DNA from: Pelosinus propionicus DSM 13327
GTDB taxonomy: Bacteria > Bacillota > Negativicutes > DSM-13327
Assembly (NCBI RefSeq): GCF_900114615.1
Contig: NZ_FOTS01000017.1
Span: forward strand, 1-64,000
DNA length: 64,000 nucleotides
Direction: 5' to 3'
Below the pieces are notes generated by a model that searched no databases, was not told where the DNA came from, and saw only the letters and a program-made list of their open reading frames with translations. Position numbers and translations under genes: made by a program. Each line of letters begins with the position of its first letter. The stretch's first letter is position 1. Shown here piece by piece: positions 41,484 to 50,757 of the stretch.

Positions 41484-41870
41484 TTAGTTAGCAATTTCTC
41501 CATGAATTTCTTTGCCGCGAATTTCTTTAACTTTATTATTTTCACCCACCATCACTACAGTAGGAGTAAATTCTCTTGCTTCCTCTTGAGTCATCATCGC
41601 ATAGGAGATAATAATCACCTTATCATCAGGCTGTACTAAACGAGCTGCGGCTCCATTCAAACAAATAATACCCGAATCTTTCTCTCCAACGATCACATAT
41701 GTCTCAAACCGATTACCATTATTATTATTTACAATTTGCACTTTTTCATTAGGCTGAATTCCTGAAGCGGTTAATAAGCTTTCATCGATGGTGATACTTC
41801 CCATATAATTAAGATTTGCCTCCGTCACCGTGGCACAATGAAGTTTTGCCTTTAAGCATGTAATAAACAT
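41484..41870 (-). CDS. panD: Aspartate 1-decarboxylase proenzyme
   Basis: 128 residues from the ATG at 41870, with GGAGGG nine bases upstream; the longer frame has no RBS. It makes beta-alanine from aspartate using a pyruvoyl group formed by self-cleavage between Gly24 and Ser25 (NYMGSITID). Helper features [11 protein letters not shown] and the N-terminal [16 protein letters not shown] are conserved. Some clostridia need PanM/PanZ-like maturation, but Bacillus-type PanD matures alone. It starts four bases beyond the panC stop, so its RBS lies inside panC and translation is coupled. Last gene of the pan operon. Confidence 0.94.
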
Positions 41871-41874
41871 AGAA

Positions 41875-42720
41875 TTATCCCTCCAATATGATATTATCAA
41901 TTAAACGAGTCTTGCCAATACGCACGGCTAAAGCTAAAAGAGCTTTCCCAATCATCTTGTCCATAGTTTCTAATAATGGGTAGCTGTATATCTCTACATA
42001 ATCAATTTGCGCCATTTCTTCCAATTGGATGTTCGCTACCACCTGCTGTCTGATGTCTTCTACCTTTACATCACCCCTAGCAACAAGCTGCTTGGCTAGC
42101 TGCAAACTGCGAAACAGCACTAATGCCGCGCTGCGCTCTTCAGCAGATAAAAAAGCATTACGAGAACTCATGGCGAGCCCATCTTTTTCCCGCACAATTG
42201 GTACAATCTCGATAACTACATTTATATTTAAATCAGAAACCATACGCTTCAGCACTAAGACCTGCTGCGCATCTTTTTGACCAAAGAAAGCTATGTCAGG
42301 CTGAATAATATTAAATAACTTAGTCACAACTGTAGCGACTCCACGAAAATGACCTGGCCGAGATAAACCGCATAGTTTTTGGGTAATACCATCAATTTCT
42401 ATAAAACTGCTGTATCCCTTAGGATACATCTCCTGAGCTTGAGGATGAAAAATGACATCCACTCCAGCAGTACCTGCTTGTACACTATCACCACTTAAAT
42501 CTCTCGGATATTTTGCATAATCTTCATTAGGGCCAAATTGAGTAGGATTCACAAAAATACTCACCACAACGATATCACTTTGTTTTTTTGCTTGACGCAT
42601 TAATGTAAGATGTCCTTCGTGCAAAGAACCCATAGTCGGTACTAATCCGACTGACAAACCCTTTGCTTTTGCCTGTTTAATGAAAATCTTCATTTCCTCT
42701 ATGGTTTCAATAATTCTCAT
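41875..42720 (-). CDS. panC: Pantoate-beta-alanine ligase (pantothenate synthetase)
   Basis: 281 residues. It joins pantoate and beta-alanine with ATP to give pantothenate. HIGH-type nucleotidyl transferase signatures are [35 protein letters not shown] and the KMSKS-like loop DGLAMSSRN. Third gene of the operon, between panB and panD, spaced about 89 bases after panB's end (with a start RBS AAAGGAGA). Length and order fit the Firmicute enzyme. Confidence 0.96.
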
Positions 42721-42809: not shown

Positions 42810-43649
42810 CTAGTATAATTTTTCTAAAATTCCATCAGATATTTTAAAACTATGTTCCGCCGAAGGAAATATTTTGCCTGTCACTTCTTTTTTATAGTCA
42901 GCTACTGCTTGCGCTATTGCTACATGCAAGGTAGCATATTGTTTTACAAATTTGGGAGTAAATCCAGGATATAAACCGAGCAGATCATTTATGACCAATA
43001 CCTGCCCATCACAGTCCGCACCAGCGCCGATGCCAATGGTTGGTATATTGAGCTGCTGCGTTACTTTTTGCGCCAGTAAAGCCGGTACGCATTCTAGAAC
43101 AACAGCAAAAGCACCGTTTTCTTCTAGAATCTTAGCATCATTAAGCAATTTTTGAGCCCCTATTTCCTCTTTTCCCTGTACTTTAAAACCACCCAGACTA
43201 TGAACTGACTGAGGTGTTAACCCCAAATGTCCCACTACAGGAATCCCAGCCGCCACTATTTTTTTTACAGCTCCAGCAATTTCACTGCCGCCTTCGAGTT
43301 TAACAGCCTGAGCCCCTGTTTCTTTCATAATCCTTCCTGCGTTGGCTACCGCCTGCTCCGCGGAAACCTGATAAGACATAAAGGGCATATCTACAACTAC
43401 CATTGCTTTTTTTGCCCCCCGGCATACTGCTTTACCATGATGGATCATATCCTCCATGGTAACTGGCAGAGTTGAATCATATCCCAATATCACATTTCCT
43501 AAGGAATCACCTACTAAAAGCATATCAATATGGGCATCATCAAGAAACTTTGCCGTAGAAAAATCATATGCTGTTAGCATGGTAATGGCTTTTCCCTCTA
43601 TTTTTCGTTGCTGAATCACTGTCGTTGTAATCTTTTCATTGCTACTCAT
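42810..43649 (-). CDS. panB: Ketopantoate hydroxymethyltransferase
   Basis: 279 residues. It makes ketopantoate from 2-oxoisovalerate and methylene-tetrahydrofolate with a magnesium ion. Motifs LLVGDSLGNVILGYDSTLPVT, EGGSEIAGAVKKIV, GHLGLTPQSVHSLGG and GIGAGADCDGQVLV are present. Starts two bases after the DUF2520 gene stop, implying coupling. Its folate need links it to one-carbon metabolism. The product needs reduction by a ketopantoate reductase, for which the upstream gene is a candidate. Confidence 0.96.
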   Translation of the reverse strand: MSSNEKITTTVIQQRKIEGKAITMLTAYDFSTAKFLDDAHIDMLLVGDSLGNVILGYDSTLPVTMEDMIHHGKAVCRGAKKAMVVVDMPFMSYQVSAEQAVANAGRIMKETGAQAVKLEGGSEIAGAVKKIVAAGIPVVGHLGLTPQSVHSLGGFKVQGKEEIGAQKLLNDAKILEENGAFAVVLECVPALLAQKVTQQLNIPTIGIGAGADCDGQVLVINDLLGLYPGFTPKFVKQYATLHVAIAQAVADYKKEVTGKIFPSAEHSFKISDGILEKLY

Positions 43650-43651
43650 AA

Positions 43652-44539
43652 TTATTTCCCCCTATTATCAATTCCTAGTATTTCTTCTATGCCCGCAGCT
43701 TGCTCCTGACTAACCGTACCTTTCTGTAAGGCAATCCCCAAAGTATACATTCCAAGCTCACTATATAAGCTTTTGTCTGCTTCATTTTCAAATGTCTCCA
43801 AGTGCGCCTTTACCGTAATGCCATCCCCACGACTAATAGGACCAGTCAGCCCTTGAACCGTTCCCATTTCCTTTATATTCTGCAGAGTTCCCTCCAGCAG
43901 CGGCAGCAATGCAGCTAACGCTTCTTCAGAAGATAAACCAAATTTTCCATACAGTCGACTTGCCCAATGCATCAAGGAAACCGTGTAGTTCGATACAATG
44001 CAAGCAGCCCCGTGATAAAGAGGCTTATCTGCATCTACAATATGAAAACTGGTTCCTCCTAAATCATTCACAATTTTTTCGGCTTGCTGTATAACCTCCA
44101 TCTGTCCGCTTAAAGCAAAATAGATACCTTCTAATCTTTCACTCGTTTGTTCTTTATTGGCAAAGGATTGCAGGGGATGCATACAGCCAATCCATGCTCC
44201 TTGCTCCTTTGCAGGCATGAGCACTTCCGCTGGCAGACATCCTGAGGTATGAAGTACCATTTGCCCTCTTTTAAAACCATTTTCGCTGGCTATTTGGGCT
44301 GCCACCTCCCCGATGTGCCGATCAGGTGTTGTAATGAATAGTATATCTGTATCATGCATTAATTCGACTGCTCTTATCTTCGCGTCTATTCCCAATTCCC
44401 CAGCCAGCTGACTTGCTGATGTTAGAGTACGGCCAACAATTCCAGTTAAAGAATACCCCCTGTCAAATAATCCTCGTGCTAATACACTACCTACTTTTCC
44501 AGCTCCTACAATACCTACTCTCGGCTTTTGTACATCCAT
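43652..44539 (-). CDS. Rossmann-fold DUF2520 protein, candidate ketopantoate reductase (PanG-like)
   Basis: 295 residues. The N-terminal NAD(P)-binding fold shows RVGIVGAGKVGSVLARGL, with the GxGxxG pattern, and the C-terminal half is the DUF2520 domain (LYHGAACIVSNYTVSLMHWA given by its conserved H-G-A-A and S-N-Y). It heads the operon with panB, panC and panD and is tightly spaced with panB. A ketopantoate reductase of the same general type, named PanG, has been described in Francisella and Enterococcus, which supports that role; family membership here is my inference. Neither panE nor ilvC is seen in the window. Confidence 0.75.
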   Translation of the reverse strand: MDVQKPRVGIVGAGKVGSVLARGLFDRGYSLTGIVGRTLTSASQLAGELGIDAKIRAVELMHDTDILFITTPDRHIGEVAAQIASENGFKRGQMVLHTSGCLPAEVLMPAKEQGAWIGCMHPLQSFANKEQTSERLEGIYFALSGQMEVIQQAEKIVNDLGGTSFHIVDADKPLYHGAACIVSNYTVSLMHWASRLYGKFGLSSEEALAALLPLLEGTLQNIKEMGTVQGLTGPISRGDGITVKAHLETFENEADKSLYSELGMYTLGIALQKGTVSQEQAAGIEEILGIDNRGK

Positions 44540-44582: not shown

Positions 44583-44640
44583 AAAGAATGACATCACTAC
44601 AGCCTAGTTTAGTGAGTACAGATTTTAATGCTCATTCTTT
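44583..44640 (-). promoter_or_regulatory. Hairpin in the 5' leader of the pan operon
   Basis: AAAGAATGA (44583-44591) pairs with TCATTCTTT (44632-44640); inside, CACTA and TAGTG pair around a short loop, leaving an asymmetric internal loop. It lies about 45 bases upstream of the first gene. It may be a cis-regulatory element such as the known pan RNA motif; I cannot confirm this. Confidence 0.3.
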
Positions 44641-44682
44641 GAAATCCTAAATAAAACTTTTCAAGTGGCAGCTCAAGAAAAA

Positions 44683-44878
44683 ACACAAAAAAGCCTTTCG
44701 GAGCTTGTCCGAAAGGCATACTTTTCCCATGCAACCTCCCGTCTCAGTCCATTAAAAGATCTAAGCGGCTATAATTCGATATGAAACTGTGGAATACTAT
44801 AGCAACAAGTTCTTGTTTACAGTATGGTTCATAGCTGATACCACCTAAAGAACACTTCGCTATTTTAACTACAAAACG
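44683..44878 (-). ncRNA. Candidate leader or small RNA ending in an orphan terminator before the pan operon
   Basis: A strong terminator, GCCTTTCGGA (44693-44702) with TCCGAAAGGC (44708-44717) and six T on the minus strand, has no minus-strand gene before it. A possible promoter (TTGTCT-N18-TATTAT on the minus strand, near 44880-44910) and a foldable region between (AACAAG/CTTGTT, ATACT/AGTAT, TATGAA/TTCATA arms at 44770-44835) suggest a transcript of about 190 bases that stops here or reads into the pan genes. It matches no riboswitch I recognise. Confidence 0.45.
44693..44717 (-). terminator. Orphan terminator between pan leader and upstream gap
   Basis: Ten-base perfect stem with a five-base loop and TTTTTTG after it on the minus strand. 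No protein gene ends nearby on that strand, so it belongs to a leader or small RNA. Confidence 0.8.
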
Positions 44879-45033
44879 ATAATATCATAATCCATAATAA
44901 AAAGACAAGAGTTTTATATAGCAAATCATTGCTTTTATCTTATATGATGATGTTTAATATATAACTGAAAGTCTCTGAATTAAGATATACAAACGATCAA
45001 ACCTACTATAAAATATATTTAGGAGGTGCTCTT

Positions 45034-46380: not shown

Positions 46381-46968
46381 TTATCTCTCGCACAGCACAG
46401 GGAAAAGCTTCTTGTAAATCATCAATGTAAGTAGAGACATCACAATTCCTTTTATCAAATTAAAAGGTGCAATCCCTAAAGCAATGAAGGATTTCAAATC
46501 AATAATCTTGGGATTTGCGATTGTTCCTAAATTAATAATTTGTTCTAAGGGGAAATGCAGGACAGCTTGATATAAGGGTAATAGAATAAAATAATTCAGC
46601 AAAGACGCAGAAACCATCATAGAGAAGGTTCCAACGAGAAGAGAAATCACGGCACTCTGAAGACTCGTATGGCGCCGATATAAATAGCTTGCTGGCAGAA
46701 TAAAAGCAATTCCCACCAAAAAATTAGCAACTTCGCCAATTCCCATTGTCTGTGTATTCGCAGCATGCAAAACATTTTTTATTAATTCAATAGCAACACC
46801 CGCCATAGGCCCAAGTACAAAAGCACCAATAATCACAGGCAGTTCACTAGCGTCTAATTTTAAAAAACTCGGCATCATCGGCAACGGCACTTCAAAAAAC
46901 ATCAAAATTACAGCAATCGCTGATAATATTCCAATTTTAGTAATATATCGCGTATTGGCAGAAATCAT
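46381..46968 (-). CDS. ribU: ECF transporter riboflavin-binding S component RibU
   Basis: 195 residues from the ATG at 46968 (GGGGGA six bases upstream). The longer frame of 37 extra codons runs through the terminator of the riboswitch and is not translated. About five to six membrane segments with VPLPMMPSFLKLDASELPVIIGAFVLGP (conserved K-L-D-S and E-L-P) and the C-terminal GIAPFNLIKGIVMS, typical of RibU. It pairs with the shared EcfA-A'-T energising module coded elsewhere. An FMN riboswitch and terminator precede it, giving shut-off at high flavin. Confidence 0.93.
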   Translation of the reverse strand: MISANTRYITKIGILSAIAVILMFFEVPLPMMPSFLKLDASELPVIIGAFVLGPMAGVAIELIKNVLHAANTQTMGIGEVANFLVGIAFILPASYLYRRHTSLQSAVISLLVGTFSMMVSASLLNYFILLPLYQAVLHFPLEQIINLGTIANPKIIDLKSFIALGIAPFNLIKGIVMSLLTLMIYKKLFPVLCER

Positions 46969-47021
46969 ATCAAATCCCCCTATTAAAGTAATCCCTATCA
47001 ACTTATATTTTCTCATCACAG

Positions 47022-47060
47022 AGCACAAAAAAATTCCCGAAATCTCTTCGGGAATTTTAA
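47022..47060 (-). terminator. Expression-platform terminator of the FMN riboswitch
   Basis: AATTCCCGAA and TTCGGGAATT (about 47032-47056) form the stem, with seven T on the minus strand (A run 47027-47033). Its position between aptamer and ribU start fits ligand-dependent termination. Confidence 0.85.
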
Positions 47061-47160
47061 TTACTACACGCAAACACATCTTTCATGTCGGCTTACTAAG
47101 CCCATACACTGATGTATCTCCAGAAAGTTAAACTTTCTATTAAATACATAATGCGCTGCT

Positions 47161-47280
47161 TTCTCTTCTTACATCCAGACTATACTGTCGGCTTTGGAAT
47201 TACACCAAATCTGCCTTGCGGCTCGTGGGCTTGCAGAATCTGCTTACCACCGGTCGGGAATTGAACCCTGCCCTGAAGAT
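47161..47280 (-). promoter_or_regulatory. FMN riboswitch (RFN element)
   Basis: On the minus strand the element opens with ATCTTCAGGGCAGGG, continues with AATTCCCGACCGG and AGCCCACGAGC, and closes with CCGACAGTATAGTCTGGATG followed by AAGAAGA that pairs with the opening. These are the invariant RFN blocks that fold into a six-stem junction binding FMN. It controls ribU through the terminator at 47022-47060. Confidence 0.95.
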
Positions 47281-47308
47281 ATTTCAATTTATTTAATTTT
47301 AGCCCCAG

Positions 47309-50617: not shown

Positions 50618-50649
50618 TTGTTCCATAAGAATCACTTACATTTCATAAA

Positions 50650-50757
50650 AGCAGATACAGAACTGGCGGATCGTGGAATAACCACAAGGGACTGTATTTT
50701 GAATTAGCCGACCGCCTGGGCATAACTTATTTAGTTGTGTTCAGGCGGTTTTTTTTA
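50650..50757 (+). promoter_or_regulatory. ZTP/ZMP riboswitch (pfl motif) with terminator
   Basis: The aptamer (about 50650-50722) shows ACTGGCGG, GTGGAATAACCAC, GGGACTG and the hallmark CCGACCGCCTGGGC. The terminator is CCGCCTG (50712-50718) with CAGGCGG (50742-50748) and eight T. The overlap of the 3' aptamer arm with the terminator arm fits the known mechanism: bound ZMP/ZTP, which builds up when 10-formyl-tetrahydrofolate is short, stabilises the aptamer and lets transcription proceed. The motif got its name from pfl genes, and pflB follows here. Confidence 0.93.

Follow-up and report, generated by a model that had tools for sequence, protein, structure and literature searches.

The pantothenate operon of Pelosinus propionicus DSM 13327, a member of the Sporomusaceae within the Negativicutes, is preceded by a strong intrinsic terminator that has no gene in front of it, which raises the question of what this terminator ends and how the genes behind it are read. 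We analyzed this question in a window of 64,000 nucleotides (positions 1 to 64,000 of contig NZ_FOTS01000017.1), in which the operon and its leader lie on the same strand. In the order of transcription, the operon contains the following genes:

43652-44539, minus strand: first gene, encoding a Rossmann-like protein with a DUF2520 domain (Pfam PF10727, PF10728)
42810-43649, minus strand: panB (TIGR00222)
41875-42720, minus strand: panC (TIGR00018)
41484-41870, minus strand: panD (TIGR00223)

A complete pan RNA upstream of the operon

A first-pass annotation had noted several foldable arms between a possible promoter and the terminator, and had mentioned the pan motif without being able to match it. 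The Rfam check places pan well above the cut-off: cmscan matched RF01749 at 44735-44847 on the minus strand with 52.1 bits, against a gathering score of 36.2, and with E-values of 3.5e-6 and 2.9e-8 when the whole window and the intergenic stretch, respectively, were searched. The model is covered completely (positions 1-92), and the foldable arms turn out to be its two stems, P1 and P2, aligned in tandem:

44735-44847, minus strand: pan motif RNA RF01749 (Rfam model match)
44820-44847, minus strand: pan hairpin P1, with bulged A44839 and A44823 (Rfam model alignment, all pairs standard)
44739-44768, minus strand: pan hairpin P2, with bulged A44760 and A44742 (Rfam model alignment; covariation in relatives)
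44768-44739, 44767-44740 and 44766-44741, minus strand: basal pairs of P2 (Rfam model alignment)

Both hairpins are built alike: above three basal pairs, an A bulges from the 3' strand; five pairs further on, another A bulges from the 5' strand, and at least two more pairs lead up to the loop. Across our survey set of 133 Bacillota loci with pan, the bulged A is 100% conserved on the 3' side of P2 and 96% conserved on the 5' side of P1. In the study by Weinberg et al. 2010 (PMC2864571), pan RNAs are described from three phyla, mostly as tandem stems with bulged As. The RNA studied here is like them in having two bulged As per stem, tandem stems, a full model match scoring above the gathering threshold, and a location upstream of panB, panC and panD. 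Its identity as a pan RNA is nearly certain, and it is a fresh member of a known family in its customary place; a search of the genome found no further copy.

RNA-seq studies have placed pan ahead of the panB operon in Bacillus methanolicus (PMC4342826) and Paenibacillus riograndensis (PMC5670726), and among the 5'-UTR elements of B. amyloliquefaciens (PMC4634765), while a paper on CoA in B. subtilis (PMC11487621) does not mention a riboswitch. Our literature search, confined largely to main texts outside the subscription journals, found nothing on a ligand, protein or expression platform of pan beyond the 2010 description and the RNA-seq sightings.

The 6S RNA, which had been suggested for checking, gave no Rfam match in the window or in the intergenic stretch. 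Other RNA families did not match either, and we attribute the sub-threshold snoRNA and microRNA matches in the stretch to chance. Elsewhere in the window, an FMN riboswitch (47159-47284, minus strand, 120.1 bits) lies upstream of an ECF transporter S-component gene (46381-47079, minus strand) that probably encodes a riboflavin transporter, and a ZMP/ZTP riboswitch (61.4 bits) is located at 50649-50728 on the plus strand.

Promoter and terminator of the leader

The pan RNA is flanked by the following elements:

44879-44908, minus strand: promoter, TTGTCT and TATTAT spaced by 18 nt, with TG ahead of the -10 box (consensus scan; conserved in 12 loci)
44687-44717, minus strand: intrinsic terminator, hairpin 44717-44693 plus U tract (fold test; covariation in relatives)

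The promoter scan by itself performs at chance level (2 sites found, 2.7 expected). The promoter, including the TG ahead of the -10 box, is nevertheless kept in an alignment of 12 loci from Pelosinus and the same family, in which alignment is poor further upstream. This conservation supports the promoter that had been placed about 170 nt upstream of the terminator, now located at 44908-44879, and transcription would start near 44872.

The terminator is a perfect 10-bp hairpin followed by a U tract, and starts 18 nt past the end of the pan match. Its predicted folding energy of -16.8 kcal/mol (z -4.95) was equaled by none of 200 shuffled sequences, in agreement with the strong minus-strand terminator of the first-pass annotation at 44693-44717. 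It is also true that no gene precedes it, as there is no open reading frame of at least 60 amino acids just before it on the same strand. The label "orphan", however, is wrong, because the terminator is part of the pan leader. The presence of a pan motif and a terminator ahead of the operon supports the proposal of an attenuated leader, and a stand-alone short RNA need not be invoked, since the attenuated transcript would itself be about 185 nt long. A second hairpin, proposed at 44583-44640, did not hold up: its z-score is -0.17, 86 of 200 shuffled sequences fold equally well or better, and the stretch fails to align even between close relatives.

The terminator is conserved downstream of pan

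Among 120 relatives, 84 carry pan; of the 77 with panB, 72 do so. A broader sample of the whole phylum gave 30 genomes with pan out of 61. An intrinsic terminator follows within 130 nt of pan in 121 of the 133 surveyed loci; the 130 nt preceding pan contain one in 16 loci, and the opposite strand of the region downstream in seven. In a separate count covering the region from pan to the first gene, terminators were found in 89 of 94 cases, against a mean of 20.5 and a maximum of 27 in dinucleotide shuffles. In a covariation analysis of 46 sequences, with each genus represented roughly once, 96.8% of the cells in the P2 and terminator pairs are paired, and 13 of the 19 pairs have changed on both sides. 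None of 500 shuffles reached this level, and slid controls gave 31-53%.

A putative antiterminator formed by the 3' end of pan

In most loci, the 3' end of pan (ACGGxAGG), comprising the 3' side of the P2 base plus the tail that the Rfam model leaves unpaired, is complementary to the 5' arm of the terminator. For P. propionicus the two strands are:

44734-44741, minus strand: antiterminator 5' strand CGGGAGGU, P2 base plus pan tail (duplex energy, state energies, cross-locus tests)
44710-44717, minus strand: antiterminator 3' strand GCCUUUCG, identical to the terminator 5' arm (duplex energy, state energies, cross-locus tests)

The duplex of CGGGAGGU (44741-44734) with GCCUUUCG (44717-44710) has a calculated energy of -11.1 kcal/mol, and such a helix would exclude both the P2 base and the terminator. 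For the RNA up to the terminator loop, the state with intact P2 (-37.8 kcal/mol) and the antiterminator state (-37.3 kcal/mol) are balanced, with a gap of 0.5 kcal/mol. Once the full terminator has been transcribed, the terminator state wins by 11 kcal/mol; therefore, we infer that the decision must fall during transcription.

Comparisons between loci bear on whether this complementarity is specific. In 81 of 115 loci, no segment of the upstream leader pairs better with the terminator arm than the pan end does; in the Negativicutes this share is 0.71, versus 0.38 with shuffled arms. Native arms pair better than arms taken from other loci, with z-scores of 4.6 for all loci and 3.3 for one locus per family (9 of 10,000); in the held-out set outside the Negativicutes, which was read only after the hypothesis had been formed, the effect is modest (z 2.0; 271 of 10,000). 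In a fixed alignment, 75.5% of the antiterminator cells are paired (4 of 500 shuffles as high; slid controls 40-64%), and double-sided changes are few, the five cells observed not exceeding the shuffles (152 of 500). A terminator located between sensor and gene is accompanied here by a competing antiterminator that is weak on covariation. In our view, the antiterminator is supported, being well placed and better than chance, with covariation that falls short of proof. Three loci (L092, L093 and L099) have little complementarity at the pan end. In about 20 loci of the Negativicutes, the best upstream partner of the terminator arm lies near P1 instead of at the pan end, which may reflect chance or an alternative antiterminator.

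Genes downstream of pan and a variant in transporter loci

The first recognized gene behind pan encodes a DUF2520 protein in 59 of the 133 loci, PanC in 39, a PanS-type transporter in 13, PanB in nine, an ECF S component in four, BirA in three and PanD in two; PanF, another sodium/solute symporter, a lipoprotein e(P4) phosphatase and an unassigned product account for one locus each. The DUF2520 gene occupies the slot expected of a ketopantoate reductase gene. In P. propionicus its product, for which a protein search returned Pelosinus records at 76-86% identity, matched PF10728, PF10727 and, more weakly, Rossmann-fold models, and none of the ketopantoate reductase models in Pfam and NCBIfam. 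From its position we consider it likely that the DUF2520 protein is the ketopantoate reductase.

With few exceptions, the genes behind pan serve the synthesis, uptake or use of pantothenate; what unites them is pantothenate and CoA supply. The gene set spans synthesis, uptake and a kinase, which suggests that the signal is an end product of the pathway. Several individual loci deserve mention. At L045, pan is followed by birA and then by coaX, encoding type III pantothenate kinase, which may explain the presence of birA; at L120, it precedes birA and then an ECF S component. The e(P4)-family 5'-nucleotidase gene at L014 (genome G079; TIGR01533) encodes a protein that might remove phosphate from an extracellular CoA precursor ahead of uptake. 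At L129 (genome G125), a BioY-family gene (PF02632) is preceded by a pan whose P1 is degenerate; possibly, this pan copy has decayed or the gene has its own promoter.

Three loci (L046, L067 and L125) contain an ECF transporter S-component gene and no terminator. Their pan tail reads CGGAGG and is followed within a few bases by a start codon, and because of this the tail is read as a Shine-Dalgarno sequence. Judged from these sequence features, the three loci represent a variant in which the pan platform acts on translation, and locking the P2 base would hide part of the Shine-Dalgarno sequence. The two platforms would share the same sign, bound pan meaning OFF, as expected for end-product repression.

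Proposed switch and alternative explanations

Taken together, we consider it probable that the leader of the DUF2520-panB-panC-panD operon is a pan RNA combined with a terminator/antiterminator switch that is OFF when a factor is bound. Transcription would start near the position given above, and P1 and P2 would fold. With nothing bound, the P2 base (CGG) and the tail (GAGGU) would base-pair with the 5' terminator arm, and the resulting antiterminator would allow the operon to be read. A factor reporting sufficient pantothenate or CoA would bind both hairpins and keep the P2 base shut, so that no antiterminator could form and transcription would stop at the terminator. The direction of the switch is inferred, as are the presence of a bound factor and its kind, protein or metabolite.

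This arrangement can be compared with known systems. The main text of Weinberg et al. 2010 describes no expression platform. Our comparisons yielded both the terminator/antiterminator model and the variant with a Shine-Dalgarno tail; we do not claim priority for the switch model. The model resembles terminator-type riboswitches, such as the FMN element, in that the base of the sensor stem, the antiterminator and the terminator compete for one strand, and that the bound state is OFF. As pan has no known ligand, we do not claim that it is a riboswitch. PyrR-type attenuators, in which a protein stabilizes an RNA element that excludes the antiterminator, would give the same logic. Unlike them, pan has no known protein partner, and the Rfam scan, by which the two were compared, gave no match to a PyrR site.

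Two explanations dispense with a switch. Pan and the terminator might act independently, the terminator being a constitutive attenuator and the complementarity arising incidentally from GG- and CC-rich sequence that both contain. The weak double-sided covariation of the antiterminator and the fact that arms swapped between loci still pair well are consistent with this idea; however, native arms beat swapped ones, their best partner is localized to the pan end, the terminator is almost always present and the state energies are matched, and we therefore regard it as quite unlikely. Alternatively, the promoter and terminator, which enclose a short unit, might produce a trans-acting small RNA, with the operon having its own promoter further down. 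It is hard to reconcile this with a complete pan motif that stands ahead of pan genes in nearly all relatives, with start codons close behind the terminator in some loci, and with the stretch between terminator and gene, which has no conserved sequence in the aligned loci of the family, and we consider it very improbable.

Within the favored switch model, the factor may be a dimeric RNA-binding protein that contacts both bulged-A hairpins, making pan a protein-binding attenuator. We lean slightly towards this possibility: the tandem hairpins share one plan and are simple stems with bulged As, and a dimeric protein-binding motif was suggested by Weinberg et al. 2010, but no protein partner has been reported, and no regulator gene is consistently found beside pan in the 133 loci. 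On the other hand, the factor may be a small molecule (pantothenate, a phosphorylated precursor or CoA), with pan acting as a metabolite riboswitch and the terminator as its expression platform. The end-product signal suggested by the gene set would fit, as would the high conservation of P2 bases even within helices; yet the hairpins are simple, with no known junction or pseudoknot, and CoA is listed as a cofactor without any riboswitch in a 2022 review (PMC9971707), which leaves this a tentative and less probable option. Still more doubtful is a protein-free riboswitch for one of these compounds that would combine two matching hairpins with a shared 3' tail, used mostly as an antiterminator and, in some transporter loci, as a Shine-Dalgarno sequence.

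Since 2010, pan has been known as a regulatory RNA, with neither a ligand nor a protein assigned to it. What the present analysis adds is a testable switch model for such a regulator: with the bases named, the pattern seen in more than 100 loci and a translational variant for comparison, the direction of the switch, its ligand and its dependence on a protein become directly testable.
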